The translations under genes and the position numbers were made by a program. Positions 1-8,578 of a stretch of DNA of 64,000 nt are shown in pieces. Position 1 is the first letter of the stretch. The number at the start of each line of letters is the position of its first letter. Location: contig NZ_BOMV01000059.1 of assembly GCF_016862375.1 (NCBI RefSeq), forward strand, positions 62,001 through 126,000, given 5' to 3'. The notes below the pieces were generated by a model that saw only the letters and a program-made list of their open reading frames with translations, did not search any database and was not told the origin of the DNA. Source of the DNA: Paractinoplanes rishiriensis. Its GTDB lineage: Bacteria; Actinomycetota; Actinomycetes; Mycobacteriales; Micromonosporaceae.

Positions 1-805
1 GGCTGAGCTGGGCGGTGACGCTGGAGCCCATGTCGCCCGAGGTGGCCGAACGGGTCACGATCAGACCGGTGGCGACCGAGAGCAGCAGCGCCGGCACCTG
101 GGAGACCAGGCCGTCGCCGATGCTCAGCATGCTGTAGTGGTTCATCGCGTCGGCCGCGCCCATGCCCTGCTGGAAGACGCCGACCGCGAAGCCGCCGATC
201 AGGTTGATCAGGGTGATGATGATGGCCGCGATGGCGTCGCCCTTGACGAATTTCGAGCCACCGTCCATGGCGCCGTAGAAGTCGGCCTCGGAGGCCACCT
301 CGGCCCGGCGCTTCTTGGCCTCGGCCTCGTCGATCAGGCCGGCGTTCAGGTCGGCGTCGATCGCCATCTGCTTGCCGGGCATCGCGTCCAGGGTGAACCG
401 GGCGCCGACCTCGGCGACCCGCTCGGCACCCTTGGTCACCACGATCATCTGGACGATCACCAGGATCGCGAAGATGACCAGTCCGATGACCAGGTTGCCA
501 CCGACCACGAAGCTGCCGAACGCGTGGATGACCTTGCCGGCGTCGCCGTCCCGCAGCACCAGCCGGGTCGCGCTGATGTTGAGTGCCAGCCGGAACAGGG
601 TGGCCACCAGCAGCAGTGCCGGGAAGACCGAGAAATCCAGCGGTTTCTGGACGAACATGCTGGTCAGCAGGATGAGCAGGGCGCCCGTGATGTTGATGGC
701 GATGAGCAGGTCCAGCAGGAACGTCGGCAACGGCACGACCATCATGATGATGATGCCGATGACCCCGATGGGTACGGCAAGCCGGCTGACGTTCTTGTTC
801 TTCAC
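1..805 (-). CDS. flhA: FlhA, flagellar export gate protein (3' part outside window)
   Basis: Only the first 268 codons are present; the gene runs off the left edge. FlhA is the inner-membrane export-gate subunit of the flagellar type III secretion apparatus. The frame opens with a GTG at 805 preceded by GGAAGG, and is hydrophobic from about residue 9. The FHIPEP family signature is intact: LDAMPGKQMAIDAD at residues 139-152, followed by FVKGDAIA and ITLINLIGG. It is the last visible gene of the fliM-to-flhA run; a 115-base gap separates it from flhB. Family identification is certain; the cytoplasmic substrate-docking domain cannot be judged here. Confidence 0.96.
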   Translation of the reverse strand, partial: MKNKNVSRLAVPIGVIGIIIMMVVPLPTFLLDLLIAINITGALLILLTSMFVQKPLDFSVFPALLLVATLFRLALNISATRLVLRDGDAGKVIHAFGSFVVGGNLVIGLVIFAILVIVQMIVVTKGAERVAEVGARFTLDAMPGKQMAIDADLNAGLIDEAEAKKRRAEVASEADFYGAMDGGSKFVKGDAIAAIIITLINLIGGFAVGVFQQGMGAADAMNHYSMLSIGDGLVSQVPALLLSVATGLIVTRSATSGDMGSSVTAQLS

Positions 806-920: not shown

Positions 921-2012
921 TTATGCGGCTGTTGAGGCGGAGTTGGGGTTGCGGTGCAAACCAGCAGCCGATCCACGCGCCTTCAGGCTCATCACGAACG
1001 CCAGCACCTTGGCCACCGCACCGAAGAACTCGGCTGGGATCTCGGCACCGACCTCGACGCCCGCGTGCAGCGCCCGGGCCAGCGGCACGTCCTGCACCAT
1101 CGGCACCCGGTGCTCGGCGGCCAGTTCCCGGATCTTCGTGGCGACCGGGCCCTGCCCCTTGGCCACCACCCGCGGTGCGCCCTTGTTCGGCTCGTACCGC
1201 AGGGCCACCGCCACGTGCGTCGGGTTGACCATCACCACGTCCGCGGTCGGGATGTCGGCCATCTGGCGGTTCCGGGCCATGGCCATCTGCCGGGACCGGA
1301 TCTGGGCCTTGACCAGCGGGTCACCCTCGGTGTTCTTGTGCTCCTGCTTGACCTCTTCCTTGGACATCCGCAGCTGCTTGTTGGTACGCCGGCGGACCAC
1401 GAAGTAGTCGGCGGCGGCCATCGCGATACCGGCCCCCGCGGCCGCCTGGATCAGGCCGATGGTGGCGTCCTGCACCACCCCGAGCAACGACGCCAGCGGC
1501 AGGTGGCCGGCGTTCATCAGGATCGGGATGACGTCCTTGGTGGTGGTGTAGAGCACCCCGGCGAGCACCGCGGTCTTCACCAGCGCCTTGGTGCCCTCCC
1601 AGAGCGCCTGCGGCCCGAACATCTTCTTGATCCCGGGCAGCGGGTTGAGCCGGCTGAACTTCGGGATGAACAGCTTGGTGGCGACCCGGATGCCGCCCTG
1701 CGCGCCGGCCGCCGCGATGCCGACCGCCATCATGGTGGCGGCCAGCGGCAGCACCGCCCACATCGTGCCCATCCCGGCGTCCTTGAGCATGCCGAACACC
1801 AGGGCGGTGTCCGGGTTCTCGATGACCGCCGGCACCTTGGCCATCAGTTCCTCGGCGTACTCCAGCGCCGATCCGAAGGTTTTGGGCAGCATGATGCTCG
1901 CCGCGAGCATCCCGAACCAGGCGCCGATGTCCTGGCTGCGGCCGATCTGGCCCTCGCGCTTGGCCTTCTTGAGTTTCTGCGGTGTCGGCTGTTCGGTCTT
2001 CTCGCCGCTCAT
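921..2012 (-). CDS. flhB: FlhB, flagellar export switch protein
   Basis: FlhB (363 aa, usual family length) is a membrane protein of the flagellar secretion gate whose cytoplasmic domain switches export from rod/hook to filament substrates. The N-terminus has the family pattern EKTEQPTPQKLKKAKREGQI. Four hydrophobic stretches follow, and the autocleavage motif NPTH is at residues 263-266, so the substrate-specificity switch should work. The C-terminal tail after about residue 345 is short and Ser/Asn/Ala-rich. It starts 10 bases after fliR stops and is part of the fliM-flhA unit. Confidence 0.97.
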   Translation of the reverse strand: MSGEKTEQPTPQKLKKAKREGQIGRSQDIGAWFGMLAASIMLPKTFGSALEYAEELMAKVPAVIENPDTALVFGMLKDAGMGTMWAVLPLAATMMAVGIAAAGAQGGIRVATKLFIPKFSRLNPLPGIKKMFGPQALWEGTKALVKTAVLAGVLYTTTKDVIPILMNAGHLPLASLLGVVQDATIGLIQAAAGAGIAMAAADYFVVRRRTNKQLRMSKEEVKQEHKNTEGDPLVKAQIRSRQMAMARNRQMADIPTADVVMVNPTHVAVALRYEPNKGAPRVVAKGQGPVATKIRELAAEHRVPMVQDVPLARALHAGVEVGAEIPAEFFGAVAKVLAFVMSLKARGSAAGLHRNPNSASTAA

Positions 2013-2022
2013 CTCACCTCCC

Positions 2023-2787
2023 TCAGCCGCCGGTGAGGTTCAGGACCGCGTTGACCGCCTTCTCGACGAGCGTGTCGACCACCGCCGGCAGGGTGGTGAT
2101 GGCCAGCCCGGAGAGCAGCAGGACCAGGAAGATCTTGGCGGGAAAACCGAGCTGGAACGCGTTGAGCGCCGGCGCCACCCGGTTGAGGAGGCCGAACGCC
2201 ACGTCGGTGAGGAACAGCACGGCGATCAGCGGGCCGGCGATCTGCAGCGCGGCCAGGAACATCTCGCCGATGCCCTCGATCAGCAACTGGCTGAACGTGC
2301 TCATGTTGAGCCCGGCGTTGAGCGGAATCGTCTGGAACGACTGCAGAAATCCGCGCAGGATCAGCTGGTGCCCCTCGGTGGCGAACAGGAGGGTGGCCGC
2401 CACCAGGTTGTAGAACCGGCCGAACACCGAGCTCTGGTTCATCGACAGCGGGTCGTACCCCATCGCCAGGGTGAAGCCGCCGAACAGGTCCAGCAGGTCA
2501 CCGGCCGCTTGGAGCGCGGCGAACAGCAGCGCCGTGATGAAGCCCAGCGCGGCACCGATGAAGACCTGAAGCGCGGCACTCGCGATGATGTCGGCCGTCT
2601 CCAGGGACGGGATGGTGCTCCGCAGGTATGGCGCCATCGGCAGGGTGAGGCCGATGGAGAGCAGCACCTTGATGGTCCCGGGGATGAGCCGCGAGTTGAA
2701 CGGCGGGCAGATGATCATCCAGGCGCCGGTACGGGCCGCGCCCAGCATGATCGCCAGCAGCTCCGCGACCGGCACGTTCCAGTTCAT
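2023..2787 (-). CDS. fliR: FliR, flagellar export gate protein
   Basis: FliR (254 aa) is the single-copy subunit of the FliP-FliQ-FliR export gate in the flagellar basal body membrane. The protein is almost wholly hydrophobic with about six predicted membrane segments, and the family features are visible: FLAALQIAGPLIAVLF near the middle and a C-terminal hydrophobic region. Its ATG overlaps the TGA of fliP (ATGA), so the two are translationally coupled. Length is normal, so it is not fused to FliQ or FlhB. Notably no fliQ lies between it and fliP. Confidence 0.96.
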   Translation of the reverse strand: MNWNVPVAELLAIMLGAARTGAWMIICPPFNSRLIPGTIKVLLSIGLTLPMAPYLRSTIPSLETADIIASAALQVFIGAALGFITALLFAALQAAGDLLDLFGGFTLAMGYDPLSMNQSSVFGRFYNLVAATLLFATEGHQLILRGFLQSFQTIPLNAGLNMSTFSQLLIEGIGEMFLAALQIAGPLIAVLFLTDVAFGLLNRVAPALNAFQLGFPAKIFLVLLLSGLAITTLPAVVDTLVEKAVNAVLNLTGG

Positions 2788-3656
2788 CGGTATGACGCAA
2801 CCAGCGCGGTGAGAATCAGCCCCCAGCCGTTGACCAGGACGAATAACAGGAGCTTGAAGGGCAGGGCGACGGTCACCGGGGGCAGCATCATCATGCCCAG
2901 TGACATCAGTGACGCCGAGACCACCATGTCGATCAACAGGAACGGGATGAAGATGACGAAGCCGATGATGAATGCGGCCCGCAGCTCGGACAGCACGAAC
3001 GCCGGGATCAGCGTGGTCAGCTCGACGTCTTCCTTGTTCCGCGGACGCTCCTCGCCGGACAGCTTGACCATCAGGGCCACCTCGTCCTCACGGGTGGTCT
3101 TCCACATGAACTCGCGCAGCGGTTCCACGCCGTCCTTGAACGCCTGCGCCTGGTTCTTGTCGCCCTTCAGGTAGGGCTGCACGCCCTGCTCGTTCATGGC
3201 CGAGACGGTGGGGCCCATGATGAACAGGCTGAGGAACAGCGCGAGCCCGGCCAGCACCTGGTTGGGCGGCATGCTGGTCAGGCCCAGCGCGTTGCGGGTG
3301 ATGCCCAGCACCATGAAGATCTTGGTGAAACAGGTGCAGAGCAGCAGCAGGGCCGGCGCCACCGACAGCACGGTGAGGCCCAGCATGATCACCAGCGAGG
3401 TGGCCGGGCGACTGCCGTCCGGGTTGGTGCCGTTGACGTTCAGGTTGATGCTCGGCCGGTTCGGCGGCGCCGGCGGAGTGGGTGCCCGCGGCACGAGTTG
3501 CGGCAGGGCCACGGTCGTCGCGGTGGCCGCCACGGCGGCCGGCGGCGGGGTGGGTGCGGGCGCGGGGGCACGACCCGGCTCAGCCGCGGCAATTCCAGGC
3601 AGCAGTACGAGTGCCAGGCCGGCGCTCGCGAGCAGGAGCAGGATCGCGCGTCGCAT
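2784..3656 (-). CDS. fliP: FliP, flagellar export gate protein
   Basis: FliP (290 aa from the ATG at 3656) forms the core of the flagellar export gate. I chose this start because it gives a signal peptide (MRRAILLLLASAGLALVLLP, cut near AAA) which FliP proteins normally have; an upstream in-frame start would run through the end of fliO. After cleavage comes an unusual Pro/Ala-rich stretch (about residues 28-75), then the conserved body: LLLLCTCFTKIFMVLGITRN, PPNQVLAGLALFLSLFIMGP and the C-terminal MMMLPPVTVALPFKLLLFVL. The stop overlaps the fliR start. Confidence 0.96.
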   Translation of the reverse strand: MRRAILLLLASAGLALVLLPGIAAAEPGRAPAPAPTPPPAAVAATATTVALPQLVPRAPTPPAPPNRPSINLNVNGTNPDGSRPATSLVIMLGLTVLSVAPALLLLCTCFTKIFMVLGITRNALGLTSMPPNQVLAGLALFLSLFIMGPTVSAMNEQGVQPYLKGDKNQAQAFKDGVEPLREFMWKTTREDEVALMVKLSGEERPRNKEDVELTTLIPAFVLSELRAAFIIGFVIFIPFLLIDMVVSASLMSLGMMMLPPVTVALPFKLLLFVLVNGWGLILTALVASYR

Positions 3657-3657
3657 A

Positions 3658-4053
3658 TCAGTGCCTCGTGGTCCGGTCGCGCAGAAAGTCCAGGATCCGC
3701 CCCGAGCTCGAGACGTCGGCCGCCGCCGGATGGGCATCGGGCAGCTCGCCGGCCTCGTCCTCGGCCAGCACCACGCTGTCCCGCCGCTCCGGCGGGTGCT
3801 TCTCGAAGTCCGCCACCTCGGCCTCGCCCAGCAGGCTCACCTGCTGATCGGTGACGCCCAGGATGAGAGCCCGGTCGGCCACCCGGACCACGGTCACCGC
3901 CGCTCCCCGGGTCAGCTGCTGCCGGTTGAGCACCGCGAGCGGTCCGTGGCCGCGGCCCGCGCCCAGCGGCCGGCGCACCGCGCGGGCCAGGGCCCACATC
4001 AGGCCCAGGACGACCGCCAGCGAGAAGCCGACCTGAAGGACGAGCTCGATCAA
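3658..4053 (-). CDS. fliO: FliO, flagellar export assembly protein (TTG start)
   Basis: This 131-aa protein has one N-terminal membrane segment (LVLQVGFSLAVVLGLMWALA), then a cytoplasmic part with VLNRQQLTRGAAVTVVRVAD and a VTDQQVSLLGEA region typical of FliO, the scaffold that helps assemble the FliP/FliR gate. The start is a TTG at 4053, supported by GGGAG eight bases upstream; no ATG or GTG lies nearby, and the longer open frame in this register only shadows fliN. It begins 5 bases after the fliN stop and ends one base before the fliP start. FliO is poorly conserved, so part of the identification rests on position. Confidence 0.85.
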   Translation of the reverse strand: MIELVLQVGFSLAVVLGLMWALARAVRRPLGAGRGHGPLAVLNRQQLTRGAAVTVVRVADRALILGVTDQQVSLLGEAEVADFEKHPPERRDSVVLAEDEAGELPDAHPAAADVSSSGRILDFLRDRTTRH

Positions 4054-4058
4054 GGCGG

Positions 4059-4817
4059 TTACTCCCGTTCGGTGCCCGGCGAGACGATCTCGGTGATCCG
4101 GATACCGAAGTTCTCGTCCACCACGACCACCTCGCCCCGAGCGATCAACCGGCCGTTGACCAGCAGGTCGGCGGGGCTGCCGGCGGCCCGGTCCAGCTCG
4201 ACGATGGCGCCCGGGTTGAGCGAGAGCAGTTCGCGGACCGCCATCCGGGTGCGGCCCAGCTCGGCCGAGACCTCCATCTCGACGTCGTGCAGCATGTCGA
4301 GGCCGCCGCGCAGCTGGATGCCCGGCCCGGCGGACTGCTGGCGGGCCACGTCCATCTGGCCCGGTTCCTCGCCCGGCCACGGGCTCAGCGCGAGCGCGAG
4401 CACCGCCCGCACCTCCTCGCCCTCCACCAGCGGGACCGCGACGGCGTCCTCCTTGGTGGCCAGCGAGCTCATCGCCACGCCGGACTCCATCACCACGCCC
4501 GGATCGAGGACCACCGGCCCGAAGACCCGGGCTGCCGCCTCCAGGGCGGGCCGGACCGCGGCGGTGAGGTCGAGCTCGCCCAGCGGGCTCTCCTTGAGCG
4601 CGTCCGCGAGATCCTGGCCGACCACCACGACGACCTCGCCGTTGGCCGCGCCGCTGAACTTGGCCGTCACCGCCTGGCCGTCGGCGAGCACGTCGGCGGT
4701 CGCCGCGATCGGGGCGGCGGCGCTCAGCGCCCGGCTGGTGGGCAGCACGGCCAGCGCCGCGTCGGCGGCGTTCCGGGCGAGTGTGAGCTGCGGCGCGGTG
4801 ATGGTGGGCGCGGTCAT
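4059..4817 (-). CDS. fliN: FliN/FliY, flagellar motor switch protein
   Basis: This is a C-ring component of the flagellar motor switch, working with FliM and FliG. The C-terminal SpoA/FliN domain occupies about residues 175-252, with the family pattern DVEMEVSAELGRTRMAVREL, LNPGAIVELDR and NGRLIARGEVVVVDENFGIR. At 252 aa it is about twice as long as enterobacterial FliN: an extra N-terminal region (1-165) resembles the layout of FliY, but I cannot see the ExxN phosphatase motif of CheC, so I would not predict CheY-P dephosphorylation. Its start overlaps the end of fliM by four bases. Confidence 0.93.
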   Translation of the reverse strand: MTAPTITAPQLTLARNAADAALAVLPTSRALSAAAPIAATADVLADGQAVTAKFSGAANGEVVVVVGQDLADALKESPLGELDLTAAVRPALEAAARVFGPVVLDPGVVMESGVAMSSLATKEDAVAVPLVEGEEVRAVLALALSPWPGEEPGQMDVARQQSAGPGIQLRGGLDMLHDVEMEVSAELGRTRMAVRELLSLNPGAIVELDRAAGSPADLLVNGRLIARGEVVVVDENFGIRITEIVSPGTERE

Positions 4818-5761
4818 GGACGGCCAGACTCCTTGGACGACTCCTTGGGCGGCGGCACCACGAGGCAGGCGAGCCGGGCGCCCTGATTACCGGGAACTGC
4901 GTGAGCGAAAACGGTCTCGTTGACCGTCACCTCGAGCGGCCTGCTGGTCGGATGACCGAGCGGCACGACGTCACCGGGACGCAGGTCCACGATGTCATCG
5001 GTACGCATACGAATGGGCTGGAATCGGACCGCAACGTCGATCGGAGCCGAGAAAAGGCCGGCCGTGAGGTTGCGCAACGCGAGATCCCGGCTGGCCCGTT
5101 CCTTGTCGCTCAGCACGATCGTCTCGGTCCGGCTCAGCACCGGCAGGATCATGTTGAACGGCATGCAGATCGTGGCCATGCACTCCTCGGCACCGATCTT
5201 GAGGTCGAAGGTGGCGACCACGCAGGCGTCGCCGGGCGCGTGTGCCCGCAGGAACTGCGCGTTGTACTCGACTTCCTTGAGCGTCGGCGCCATGTCGACG
5301 AGCGCCTCGAAGCCGTACCGCAGCTCGCCCAGCATCCGTTCCAGGAGCCCGCGGAGCAGCGGCATCTCGACCTCGGTGAGCGGCCGCTCCGGCTGGGGCC
5401 CGCCGGGGCCGCCGAGCATGTGGTCGATGGCGGTCATCACGGCCGACGAGGACAGCTCCATGAGGGCCGTGCCGTCCAGCGGCTCGAGGGTCACCACGGC
5501 GATCACCGTCGGGTTGGCCAGCGCGGCCACGTATTCGTCGTAGTTGAGCTGCTCGATCGAGGCGAGCGTGACGCTGCTGACCACCCGCAGGCGAGTGGTC
5601 AGCAGGGTGCCGCAACTACGGGCGTACGTCTCGAACGCGGTCTGCAGCGTGCGGACGTGGTCCCGGGAGAGCTTGACCGGGCGCCGGAAGTCGTACGCGG
5701 TCGGCCCTCCGCCCTGGCCGCGACGCGACATCTTGCCCGGGGATCGAGTAGCGGAGGTCAC
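4814..5761 (-). CDS. fliM: FliM, flagellar motor switch protein
   Basis: FliM (315 aa) is the C-ring switch protein that binds phosphorylated CheY. The N-terminal part has YDFRRPVKLSRDHVRTLQ and the middle domain the family pattern MTAIDHMLGG, followed by PLTEVEMPLLRGLLERM; a C-terminal SpoA domain follows (FQPIRM, DLRPGDVVPLGH). The GTG at 5761 starts the frame; an ATG at 5731 is an alternative with no Shine-Dalgarno. A FliA-type promoter ends only eight bases before the GTG, so the mRNA may be leaderless. The CheY-binding LSQxEIDALL peptide at the extreme N-terminus of many FliMs is not evident. Confidence 0.95.
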   Translation of the reverse strand: MTSATRSPGKMSRRGQGGGPTAYDFRRPVKLSRDHVRTLQTAFETYARSCGTLLTTRLRVVSSVTLASIEQLNYDEYVAALANPTVIAVVTLEPLDGTALMELSSSAVMTAIDHMLGGPGGPQPERPLTEVEMPLLRGLLERMLGELRYGFEALVDMAPTLKEVEYNAQFLRAHAPGDACVVATFDLKIGAEECMATICMPFNMILPVLSRTETIVLSDKERASRDLALRNLTAGLFSAPIDVAVRFQPIRMRTDDIVDLRPGDVVPLGHPTSRPLEVTVNETVFAHAVPGNQGARLACLVVPPPKESSKESGRP

Positions 5762-5883: not shown

Positions 5884-6339
5884 TTACTGGGTCACGAACT
5901 CGGTGTAGTAGATGTCCATGACCATCTTGACGTCCTTCTCGGTGTAGATCTTCACGATCTTCGTCAGCAGGTCGTGCTTGATGGTCTCGCGGCCCTTCTC
6001 GGTCGAGAGCTCGGCCACCTTGCGCCCGGTGTACTCGTCGATCGCCAGGTTGATCGCCTCGCTGAGGTCGACCTTCTCGGCGCCGGCCTCCTCGGTCTGC
6101 TGAAGCGCGAACTTGAACTTCAGGTAGTGGCCGTCGGCCAGGTTCACGGTCAGCGAGTCCTCGATCCCCACGACGATGCCCTTCACGGGCTCCTTCGCCG
6201 CCTCGGCCGAATCGCCCTTCATCATGAAGAACGCGCCGGCACCACCGCCCAGCAGCACGACTACCGCCACGATGATGATCATCAGCATCTTCTTGGACTT
6301 CTTCGGCGCCTCGGGGGCAGCAGCATCCTTGTCGCTCAT
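5884..6339 (-). CDS. fliL: FliL, basal body-associated stator protein
   Basis: FliL (151 aa) is a single-pass membrane protein that surrounds MotAB stators and supports torque. It has a charged N-terminus ending KKSKK, a membrane segment MLMIIIVAVVVLLGGGAGAF (about residues 18-37), and a periplasmic domain with the family elements NLADGHYLKFKFALQ and IYYTEFVTQ at the very end. The ATG at 6339 has GAGGAG seven bases upstream; the longer open frame upstream only shadows motB. It starts 14 bases after motB and is the last gene of the flbD unit. Confidence 0.95.
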   Translation of the reverse strand: MSDKDAAAPEAPKKSKKMLMIIIVAVVVLLGGGAGAFFMMKGDSAEAAKEPVKGIVVGIEDSLTVNLADGHYLKFKFALQQTEEAGAEKVDLSEAINLAIDEYTGRKVAELSTEKGRETIKHDLLTKIVKIYTEKDVKMVMDIYYTEFVTQ

Positions 6340-6353
6340 AGCAGCTCCTCTCG

Positions 6354-7379
6354 TCAGTCGTGCGGGGTGGTGGTCGGTGTGGTCGGGGTGGTGCTCGCGG
6401 CCGGCTCGGCCGCCTTCGCGATCGCCTCGGCCTGCGCCGTGGTCTGGCCGGTGTGCAGCTTGGCGTCCGAACCGGACGCGGTGGGCAGCAGTGCGGCCTG
6501 GTCGGCCGGCAGGGTGGTGAGGACGACGATGTCCACCCGGCGGTTCATCGTGATCGACCGCGGGTCGGCGGGGTCGATCAGTGGCTTGGTGTCGGAGAAC
6601 CCGACGGCACTCATCCGGTTCTTGGCGATGCCGTGGCTGGACAGGTACCGGACGGTGGTCGAGGCCCGCGCCGCGGACAGCTCCCAACCGCTCGGGTAGT
6701 ACTTGGTCCTGGCGTTCAGCTGGTTCGTGTTGCCGTCAACCTCGATGCTGTTCGGCAGCTTGGCCAGCGTCGGCGCGACGGCGTTGAGGATCTTCTGGCC
6801 ACCGGACTTGAGGTCCGCCCGGTCGCCGGCGAAGACGATCTCGTTGGTCACCACCGTGACCACCAGGCCGCGCCGGTCGATCGTGAACTTCACCTGGCCG
6901 AGCAGCTTCTGCTTGGCCAGCGCGTCCGAGATCTTGTTCTCGATCTTCTTCAGGTCCTCGGCTTCCTTGGTCGCCGCCTGAGCGTCCTTGGAGGCCTTGG
7001 CGCGGCTCTGCGCCACCAGGGCGTTCTGCACCGCCTGGATTTCCTTGGCGGTCATGTCGGAGGTGCCGGCCTTGCCGTCGCCGCTGCCGGCGCCCGGGTC
7101 GATCGACACGATCTGCGTGTTGTTGCCGGAACCCTCGAGCACTGCCTGCTTGCCCTGGAAGGCGGCGCTCTGCGCGCCGAATCCCTCGGAGAGACCGTTG
7201 GCGAGCTGCGCGAACTTCTTCATGTTCACGTCACTCATCGAGTAGAGCACCACGAACAGAACGAACAGCAGGGTGAGCATGTCGGCGTACGACACGAGCC
7301 AGCGCTCGTGATTGACGTGCTCCTCGTGCTCCTCATGCGGCTTCTTGCGCTTGCCGCCGCCGCCACCACCTGAACTCAT
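6354..7379 (-). CDS. motB: MotB, flagellar stator protein
   Basis: MotB (341 aa) anchors the stator to peptidoglycan and carries the ion-binding aspartate. The single membrane segment SYADMLTLLFVLFVVLYSMS follows residue 29, with the conserved Asp at 33; the YADMLT context is typical of proton-driven motors. A Gln/Ala/Lys-rich coiled region follows, then an OmpA-like peptidoglycan-binding domain at about 200-310 (LSAARASTTVRYL, GFSDTKPL, NRRVDIVV). The C-terminus is Ala/Thr/Pro-rich and low in complexity. It starts 3 bases after motA ends. Confidence 0.96.
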   Translation of the reverse strand: MSSGGGGGGKRKKPHEEHEEHVNHERWLVSYADMLTLLFVLFVVLYSMSDVNMKKFAQLANGLSEGFGAQSAAFQGKQAVLEGSGNNTQIVSIDPGAGSGDGKAGTSDMTAKEIQAVQNALVAQSRAKASKDAQAATKEAEDLKKIENKISDALAKQKLLGQVKFTIDRRGLVVTVVTNEIVFAGDRADLKSGGQKILNAVAPTLAKLPNSIEVDGNTNQLNARTKYYPSGWELSAARASTTVRYLSSHGIAKNRMSAVGFSDTKPLIDPADPRSITMNRRVDIVVLTTLPADQAALLPTASGSDAKLHTGQTTAQAEAIAKAAEPAASTTPTTPTTTPHD

Positions 7380-7382
7380 TCG

Positions 7383-8174
7383 TTATGCCGCCTTCTTGGT
7401 GTTCGCGGCCGCCTCGGCCTTGGCGGCCTCGTCCGGCGGGAGCAGACTGCGCAGCTTCTGGGCGACCAGTCGCGGGTTCGAGCCGGCCTGGATGGCCAGC
7501 ACACCGTCGACGACCAGTTCCATCTCCTCGGCCTCGACCTGGCTCAGCCGGGCGAGACGGGCCGCGATCGGCAGCCACATCAGGTTGGCACTCAGCACGC
7601 CCCAGAGGGTGGCGCAGAACGCCGCGGCGATCGAGTGGCCGAGCGTGTCGGGCTGGTCGAGGTTCTCCAGCACGTGCACCAGGCCCATGACCGTACCGAC
7701 GATGCCGATGGTCGGTGCGTAGCCGCCCATGTTCTCGAACAGCTTCGCGGAGGCCTTGTCGGACTTCTTCTTCGCGGCGATCTCGGCGTGCAGGATGTCG
7801 TGCAGCTCGTCCGGGTCGGTGCCGTCGATCGCGAGCTGCAGACCGCGCTTCAGGAACGGGTGCTCGACCGTCTTGACCGCGTCCTCGAGGGCGAGCAGGC
7901 CCTCGCGGCGGGCCCGCTCGGCCAGCTTGACGACGTTGTCGACCAGCTCGGTGGGCGGCAGGACCTTGGTGAGGAAGGCCTTCTTCAGCTGCGCGCCGAC
8001 GCCGGACCAGTCCTTCACCACACCGCCGGCCATCGCGGCGGCGAAGCCACCGCCGAACACCAGCAGCATCGAGGGGATCAGCAGGATGGAGGACGGCGAA
8101 CCACCCTCGAGGATCTGCACGGCGAAGACGATTACGAGGCCGGCGCCTACACCGACGATGGTGGAGATATCCAT
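7383..8174 (-). CDS. motA: MotA, flagellar stator protein
   Basis: MotA (263 aa) forms the ion channel of the stator with MotB. Four membrane segments are visible: two near the N-terminus (VGAGLVIVFAVQI; SILLIPSMLLVFGGGFAAAM), then PTIGIVGTVMGLVHVLENL and CATLWGVLSANLMWLPIAARL around residues 150-205. The charged cytoplasmic loop between segments 2 and 3 contains the ERARREGLLALED motif that faces FliG. Its ATG overlaps the flbD stop (TGATG), showing translational coupling. Confidence 0.96.
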   Translation of the reverse strand: MDISTIVGVGAGLVIVFAVQILEGGSPSSILLIPSMLLVFGGGFAAAMAGGVVKDWSGVGAQLKKAFLTKVLPPTELVDNVVKLAERARREGLLALEDAVKTVEHPFLKRGLQLAIDGTDPDELHDILHAEIAAKKKSDKASAKLFENMGGYAPTIGIVGTVMGLVHVLENLDQPDTLGHSIAAAFCATLWGVLSANLMWLPIAARLARLSQVEAEEMELVVDGVLAIQAGSNPRLVAQKLRSLLPPDEAAKAEAAANTKKAA

Positions 8175-8458
8175 CAGCGTTCCTTCCGGTGCAGCGGGAG
8201 CACCTTAGCGTCGAGGTCTTCGTGGTCGTCTGCGGTCAGGGCGGTGGCCGTGGGCTCGGCCTCCAGGCGACTCGCCTGGGCGATCAGCGAGGCGCGGTAG
8301 TGGCGGACCGAGTCGATGAATTCGGGCACGGACTCGGCGACGATGTACTTGGTGCCGTCAACCAGCGTTACGACCGTGTCGGGCGTGCACTCCACACGCT
8401 CGATCAGGTCCGGATTCAGGGCGAACACGGCACCGTTGATGCGGGTTACGAGGATCAC
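8174..8458 (-). CDS. flbD: FlbD family flagellar protein
   Basis: This small protein (94 aa) belongs to the FlbD family found in Gram-positive flagellar operons next to motA (not the Caulobacter sigma-54 activator of the same name). The family core is present: MILVTRINGAVFALNPDLIE, then DTVVTLVDGTKYIV. Its function is not well defined in the family. The GTG start at 8458 has AAGGA ten bases upstream. It is the first gene of the flbD-motA-motB-fliL unit, behind a terminator and a FliA-type promoter. The tail after residue 68 is low in conservation. Confidence 0.9.
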   Translation of the reverse strand: MILVTRINGAVFALNPDLIERVECTPDTVVTLVDGTKYIVAESVPEFIDSVRHYRASLIAQASRLEAEPTATALTADDHEDLDAKVLPLHRKER

Positions 8459-8525: not shown

Positions 8526-8553
8526 AATCGGCGACTTGACGGTTGCTGATGAG
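8526..8553 (-). promoter_or_regulatory. Candidate FliA-type promoter for flbD-motA-motB-fliL
   Basis: On the minus strand, CTCA (8553-8550) and GCCGATT (8532-8526) are 17 bases apart, resembling FliA/WhiG promoters. It lies about 70 bases before the flbD start and just after the flgE terminator. Confidence 0.5.
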
Positions 8554-8560
8554 ATCCATC

Positions 8561-8578
8561 CGGTCGCCTTACGGGTGC
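8561..8578 (-). promoter_or_regulatory. Candidate TcrA-box-like direct repeat
   Basis: On the minus strand GCACCCG, four bases, GCGACCG lies directly upstream of the FliA-type promoter of flbD. As I recall, the binding site described for Actinoplanes TcrA is two GCA(A/C)CCG units four bases apart; here one base differs. A TcrA-like regulator is encoded at 18164-18862. Confidence 0.35.

Follow-up and report, generated by a model that had tools for sequence, protein, structure and literature searches.

The window, a stretch of 64,000 nucleotides (C59:62001-126000 of genome G000), carries on its minus strand a run of flagellar genes in the order flbD-like, motA, motB, fliL, fliM, fliN, fliO, fliP, fliR, flhB and flhA. 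The features of the run and of the DNA upstream of it are as follows.

1..805, minus strand: 5' part of flhA, which runs off the window, read by eye (GTG at 805-803; N-terminus VKNKNVSRLAVPIGVIG...PLPTFLLD)
921..2012, minus strand: flhB, an open reading frame matching TIGR00328 (E 1.9e-98; score 329.8, slightly below the NCBIfam cut-off of 349.25)
2023..2787, minus strand: fliR, an open reading frame matching TIGR01400 (E 3.8e-49; score 167.5, slightly below the NCBIfam cut-off of 168.6)
2784..2787, minus strand: ATGA overlap of the fliP stop and the fliR start, read in the sequence; the site of fliQ in other genera of the family
2784..3656, minus strand: fliP, over the TIGR01103 cut-off (score 254.6, cut-off 217.45; E 6e-76)
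3658..4060, minus strand: fliO (approximate start), a reading frame with a 42-63% match to outgroup loci
4059..4817, minus strand: fliN, an open reading frame found in order in outgroup flagellar loci
4814..5761, minus strand: fliM, an open reading frame found in order in outgroup flagellar loci
5884..6340, minus strand: fliL (approximate start), within the open reading frame 5884-6687, matching outgroup loci
6354..7379, minus strand: motB, an open reading frame matching outgroup loci
7383..8174, minus strand: motA, an open reading frame matching outgroup loci
8174..8458, minus strand: small open reading frame, which we take to be flbD-like, the probable first gene of the motA to flhB run
8527..8553, minus strand: CTCA-N17-GCCGAT, a promoter-like element just downstream of the TcrA-box-like repeat, read from the sequence
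8561..8578, minus strand: TcrA-box-like direct repeat GCACCCG-n4-GCGACCG upstream of the run, with one mismatch to the published box

The genes fliP, fliQ and fliR usually form a tight trio. In the window, the TGA stop of fliP shares the ATGA at 2787-2784 with the start of fliR, which leaves zero space for a fliQ gene of about 89 codons. This confirms the reading of the first-pass annotation that fliQ is absent between the two overlapping genes, as well as its statement that FliR is unfused and of normal length (254 amino acids). Among the 67 genomes of the genus, here Actinoplanes in its wide sense, 60 were measured at this junction. In 59 of the 60 the distance from fliP to fliR ranges from -4 to +43 bp, 40 genomes having the value -4, and no fliQ lies between the two; the other is the draft G032, whose match to fliR is split in two, without a clear junction. 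A base error hiding the gene in the window was rejected, since fliQ is missing at the junction in these 59 genomes. The genus shares the three gate genes and the FliQ family (TIGR01402) with the canonical fliP-fliQ-fliR operon, but the canonical operon has fliQ at the junction, whereas here it stands alone elsewhere.

The first-pass annotation had proposed that FliQ must be encoded elsewhere or replaced, and the profile search that it suggested, of this genome and its relatives, decided for the former. No match was found on the contig of the window (C59), while the genome contains exactly two PF01313 matches outside the locus, at C1:174875-175093 (minus strand) and C55:190423-190641 (plus strand), each with E 3.5e-26. 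The two genes encode identical proteins of 89 amino acids and differ by one base in 264 of coding sequence. The protein scores 94.5 bits against PF01313 (cut-off 25) and 92.2 bits against TIGR01402 (cut-off 88.9), and is nearer to TIGR01402 than to the SctS models. Loss of FliQ followed by its replacement by an unrelated protein or a fusion, for which only the gap in the operon speaks, has a negligible probability and was rejected: FliQ genes are present over the Pfam cut-off in this genome and in all 67 of the genus, the protein of this genome passes the TIGR01402 equivalog cut-off, and a profile built from the FliQ of 13 relatives retrieves solved FliQ chains. Given the family of the protein and the presence of the partner genes in the cluster, both copies probably work in the FliP-FliQ-FliR gate.

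The copy on C1 sits between genes that we take to be pdxS and pdxT, and the copy on C55 is flanked by a gene partly similar to TIGR03086/TIGR03083 proteins (under the cut-off) and by a gene that is presumably glgX. These contexts are unrelated, and each copy has its own promoter region; the DNA common to both extends over about 400 bp and comprises the promoter region, the gene and part of the following hairpin. The assembly of this genome consists of 181 contigs with an estimated contamination of 5.56%, and the second copy might on that account be an assembly error or a contaminant. This is very improbable, since both copies lie at least 34 kb from the ends of contigs of 325 and 226 kb, the contexts of both are common to relatives, and two or three copies occur also in 10 of the 20 genomes that are assembled in one or two contigs. 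Draft assemblies rather seem to drop copies than to add them.

Two or three fliQ matches were found in 20 of the 67 genomes of the genus, with multiple copies in 10 of 20 genomes of one or two contigs versus 10 of 47 genomes of more contigs (Fisher p 0.039). Drafts probably undercount the copies, because in G045, at a place that is occupied in its relatives (place B, see below), the locus breaks off within fliQ, evidently at the end of a contig; multiple fliQ genes are therefore easy to miss, at least one draft assembly being broken inside a copy. The fliP gene is single in 20 of 20 genomes searched, including 18 of the 20 with multiple fliQ.

Outside the genus, the arrangement is the canonical one. 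In a sample of 150 genomes of the family, FliQ was found in 41, of which 15 belong to the genus and 26 to nine other genera. We examined 20 of these 26 genomes at the DNA level (12 loci and 8 further genomes), covering all nine genera, and fliQ lies between fliP and fliR in every one. Because the other genera keep fliQ at this position, its absence from the operon is a derived state of the genus. A scan of the neighbours of fliQ in named loci (80 kept of 245), reaching 4 kb or to the end of the shorter stored flank, gave the same division: 24 loci have both fliP and fliR beside fliQ, and 56 have neither. The former come from Dactylosporangium, Virgisporangium, Planosporangium, Spirilliplanes, Pilimelia, one Micromonospora, Actinokineospora, Actinophytocola, Planomonospora and MAGs. 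The latter all bear the name Actinoplanes or that of a genus split from it (Paractinoplanes, Amorphoplanes, Winogradskya, Couchioplanes, Pseudosporangium, Nucisporomicrobium, Jidongwangia, Mangrovihabitans or Symbioplanes), and several named genomes have two or three loci, such as Amorphoplanes auranticolor (L250, L263, L264) and Amorphoplanes nipponensis (L262, L266, L268). Horizontal transfer of fliQ between species was considered and is not supported, as the fliQ tree, compared by eye, largely tracks the tree of FliP, FliR and FlhB.

A fliQ gene outside the cluster has probably been described before. Jang et al. (2016, J Bacteriol 198:2219) reportedly noted fliQ as the sole exception outside the 33-gene flagellar cluster of Actinoplanes missouriensis. 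The separation from the cluster is the same in that species and in the genus as analysed here, but A. missouriensis is said to have one fliQ, whereas 20 of the 67 genomes have two or three, located at several places and homogenised.

To describe these locations, we grouped 87 copies from 63 genomes by the similarity of their flanking DNA, leaving out four copies of G198-G201. All 87 encode a single-domain protein of 89 or 90 amino acids without fusion, and they fall into nine recurring contexts and four single ones, as listed here with presumed names for the neighbouring genes.

Place A: beside pdxS/pdxT, 14 copies
Place B: between an ABC-transporter ATPase gene and a glyoxalase-type gene, 21 copies
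Place C: 9 copies
Place c: before glgX, 4 copies
Place D: 11 copies
Place E: 10 copies
Place F: 9 copies
Place G: near glgX, 3 copies
Place H: 2 copies
Single contexts: 4 copies

Multi-copy genomes mix these places (for example A+B+F, D+E or A+E+G), while in G058 the only copy is at place B. Places C and c have the upstream gene in common and c and G the downstream gene, and the three may go back to one old place whose sides were rearranged. At place A, fliQ occurs in either orientation among species (opposite in G000, G013 and G020), and in three genomes it lies upstream of pdxS instead of between pdxT and pdxS; these loose arrangements point to an inversion or to insertion a second time. Species also differ in the order of pdxS and pdxT, as seen in the place-A loci L039, L041, L045, L065, L083, L086 and others. 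The orthology of the places has its best support in A, B and some pairs of D and E, because elsewhere (place F and several comparisons of D, E and G) the DNA nearest to the gene hardly aligns between species. The occurrence of the same places in several species indicates that the duplication is older than the species compared, most strongly for A and B in G019 and G021. The open reading frames beside 15 representative copies look, by eye, like ordinary cellular genes.

We also analysed the same neighbourhoods where fliQ is missing. A search of 30 pdxS loci without fliQ (tblastn, E up to 0.01) revealed no FliQ-like translation, and none was found in the loci without fliQ beside the neighbours of places B and c. 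In G014, G016 and G032 the empty B place, and in G037 the empty c place, is a short intergenic stretch. Among the matches listed, those between empty places and the flanks or coding part of the unit reach up to 69 bp, and the short ones inspected are DNA of neighbouring genes, intergenic DNA or of a size expected by chance. Matches of 26 bases in G037, considered as a scar of fliQ, proved to be the end of the neighbouring gene and intergenic DNA, and the place is empty. The immediate neighbour of fliQ at place F in G010 was found in one of 20 genomes searched, namely G010 itself.

Copies within a genome resemble each other more than they resemble their counterparts at the same place in other genomes. 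In 27 of 28 within-genome pairs the mutual identity (94.3-100%) is above the best same-place match of either copy in another genome, and in 22 of the 28 the proteins are identical. Without G006, which has a segmental or large inverted duplication at one place, and G018, in which one copy is at an unshared place, 25 of 26 informative pairs group by genome. The exception is G023, whose own copies show 87.5% DNA identity and differ at 14 of 89 residues, indicating that homogenisation is not unfailing. In a tree of 40 copies from 18 genomes, again without G006 and G018, the genome label changes 17 times, which is the minimum, and the place label 25 times. The AU test rejected clades by place for three groups (p 2e-99, 1e-8 and 1e-86), which were chosen after the first tree had been viewed and were tested under a simple model on 264 columns.

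Informative sites of the coding sequence, counted as those grouping by genome to those grouping by place, number 9 to 1 for G019/G021, 19 to 0 for G015/G044, 8 to 0 for G010/G036, 3 to 0 for G012/G054, 15 to 0 for G025/G038 (places A and E), 31 to 0 for G047/G010, and 9 to 0, with one crossed, for G023/G010. Altogether, the 17 comparisons of two genomes and two places, which overlap in genomes, have 3 to 41 sites by genome and none by place, or one in two of the comparisons. In the close pair G019 and G021, promoter and flanks have 89-97% identity when compared by place but 49-63% when different places of one genome are compared, while the coding sequence is 98-100% alike within a genome versus 95-97% by place. 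These data indicate that the dispersed fliQ copies evolve in concert.

The agent is most likely gene conversion of a promoter-to-terminator unit of about 360-420 bp. We favour it because a fresh duplication would bring its own promoter, and in G019 and G021 the coding part only has been homogenised; in other genomes, homogenisation extends into the promoter. The case for conversion is weaker at place F and in part of D, E and G, where flanks compared by place scarcely align. The main competitor is repeated fresh duplication, in which a species recently copied fliQ again into the same favoured places, replacing older copies or following their loss. On the left the homology frequently ends near -92, and on the right at the stop or where the terminator ends. 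This pattern, as in a unit with fixed ends, agrees with fresh duplication, as do the two orientations at place A and the dissimilar near flanks at place F. Fresh duplication is nevertheless quite unlikely to account for the data, given that the promoters and flanks of G019 and G021 are specific to the place and common to both species up to about -15, and that new hits on the same intergenic point in many species are less economical than conversion. At the level of sequence, conversion cannot be told apart completely from repeated re-insertion into one and the same place.

The edges of the unit were measured in 27 within-genome pairs (G006 dropped). On the left, the homology ends between -89 and -96 in 13 pairs, at 14-17 bp upstream in four, 68-73 in four and 110-151 in six; on the right, it ends 0-2 bp past the stop in 15 pairs, 9-12 bp in three and 42-61 bp, approximately the end of the hairpin, in nine. 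The motif ACTTGA is present within 150 bp upstream of 40 of the 87 copies, at -91 or -92 in 34 of them, and ACTTGAGG at the left edge (about -92) may either mark where the copied unit ends or be the control element that lies farthest out. In four place-B copies (L062, L050, L059 and L061), the 8-mer CCTCAAGT, the reverse complement of ACTTGAGG, lies in the promoter spacer at about -24.

A duplicated fliQ that has remained in the operon was found in the genus g7 of the same family, and fliQ duplication is thus not confined to Actinoplanes. In four of four genomes fetched, a tandem pair of fliQ genes, 588-721 bp apart, lies between fliP and fliR (L126 5700-6930; L127 5877-6998; L128 5550-6706; L129 5344-6601), and a fifth genome (G065) has two partial matches on different contigs. 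The tandem genes resemble the copies of Actinoplanes in being duplicated and partly homogenised, and within a g7 genome they are 89-94% alike. Unlike them, they stay in the operon, and their informative sites are mixed, some grouping by genome and some by copy; the last 14 residues or so are specific to each copy, and the remainder is partly homogenised. This duplication in place might represent an intermediate step towards dispersal. Between the tandem genes there is a family-wide hairpin-forming repeat, CTTTGCTCTGCTTAC...GTAAGCAGAGCAAAG (L126 6274-6373), which also lies upstream of fliQ in G005 (L089 2818-3017). It is dispersed in 4 of 10 genomes searched (G005, with 77 exact matches, G125, G141 and G067) and absent from the other six (G000, G010, G046, G058, G173 and G087).

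These observations bear on another possibility, that the fliQ unit travels on a small mobile element without an enzyme of its own, ending in ACTTGAGG at about -92 and possibly tied to the hairpin repeat GTAAGCAGAGCAAAG. The left edges that cluster at -89 to -96, the position of ACTTGA in 34 of the 87 copies, and the repeat beside fliQ in four g7 genomes and in G005 are compatible with such an element. We regard it as unlikely: comparison by eye of occupied and empty places A and c showed no direct target repeat and no matching right end, ACTTGAGG could be merely the outermost promoter element, and the hairpin repeat is missing from six of the ten genomes, G000 included. The repeat as the carrier of fliQ is therefore not supported in those six.

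The sequences upstream of fliQ are conserved in position. A half-site of the TcrA box (published sequence as given in PMC12691653) occurs upstream of 76 of the 87 copies, and 74 of these have it at -60/-61 or -48/-49. The expectation from the window frequency is 0.07 per 150 bp; the 87 copies, being related, are not independent observations. The other half of the box is frequently imperfect upstream of fliQ. GCACTC starts at -37 to -39 in 60 copies and CCGAA at -14 in 72. Upstream of the operon in the window, the site at 8578-8561 is the only match to the published box with one mismatch, among 11 matches with up to two mismatches against 9.6 expected, a count not above chance. GCAACCG (15 versus 16 expected) and ACTTGA (13 versus 8.4 expected) are likewise not clearly enriched in the window. 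Jang et al. (2016) are said to have given the promoter consensus CTCA(N15-17)GCCGAA. The exact consensus has no match in the window, and CTCA-N17-GCCGAT at 8553-8527 differs from it by one mismatch. The position of the TcrA-box-like repeat upstream of the run, together with this neighbouring promoter-like element, suggests that the repeat is functional. The operon and fliQ are likely to be under common control; because enrichment in the window is lacking, this is based on the conserved positions upstream of fliQ and on the one site upstream of the operon.

Taken together, we propose that fliQ left the fliP-fliQ-fliR operon in the ancestor of the genus and became a self-contained transcription unit at another chromosomal site, consisting of a promoter region of about 92 bp, a gene of 89-90 codons and often a terminator hairpin. 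Copies of this unit would have entered new intergenic places and disappeared from earlier ones, resulting in one to three copies at a few recurring places; the loss can only be inferred, because no fliQ remnants were found at the empty places. RecA-type gene conversion would most likely keep the copies within a genome nearly or fully alike, so that in most multi-copy genomes the two or three places would yield a single FliQ protein. The stand-alone FliQ would then join the FliP and FliR encoded in the cluster in a normal export gate, with its expression matched to that of the operon by a similar promoter layout. We give this scenario as a whole, from the exit from the operon and copying between places to homogenisation and function in the gate, a probability of roughly 0.8. 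A stronger version, to which we give somewhat less than even odds, is that of a nomadic fliQ cassette: a unit complete from promoter to terminator, fixed at its left end, would again and again gain new intergenic places and give up old ones, its copies within a genome being kept alike by gene conversion. If true, a core gate subunit would be uncoupled from its operon, with a position that changes and a sequence that is passed on vertically.

Concerted evolution of dispersed duplicates has precedents. PMC6053082 describes concertedly evolving prokaryotic genes, including tuf and flagellin (fla), names gene conversion as the agent and states that many of these genes encode proteins of stable complexes; words beginning with 'fli' do not occur in its main text. 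The fliQ copies agree with duplicates of the tuf type, as described there, in having different contexts, in being alike within species and in a gene tree that follows the species tree. They differ in that tuf copies, as we understand it, keep their old places, whereas the places of fliQ turn over and its copies number one to three. The portions covered of the literature combining fliQ with gene conversion, duplication, zoospores or Actinoplanes contain no multiple or homogenised fliQ; the phrase 'copies of fliq' occurs there in PMC9114704 and PMC7064499, which by title and abstract are Salmonella and structural papers. A multi-copy, place-changing and homogenised fliQ thus appears to be new, as a variant of the concerted evolution of dispersed duplicates with turnover of places.

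The finding matters for flagellar phylogenies that use FliQ as a single-copy marker, as in PMC10746217, which places it among the universal proteins whose genes occur in a single copy. It matters also for knock-out work, where the removal of one copy may show nothing. Close species with occupied and empty places and with one to three near-identical copies make conversion, dosage and the relocation of a gate subunit testable.

A different arrangement was observed on contig C6 of G006 (74268-95199; L091 and L092), where fliQ and the same open reading frames over about 2.6 kb on each side occur twice, in opposite orientation and about 20 kb apart.
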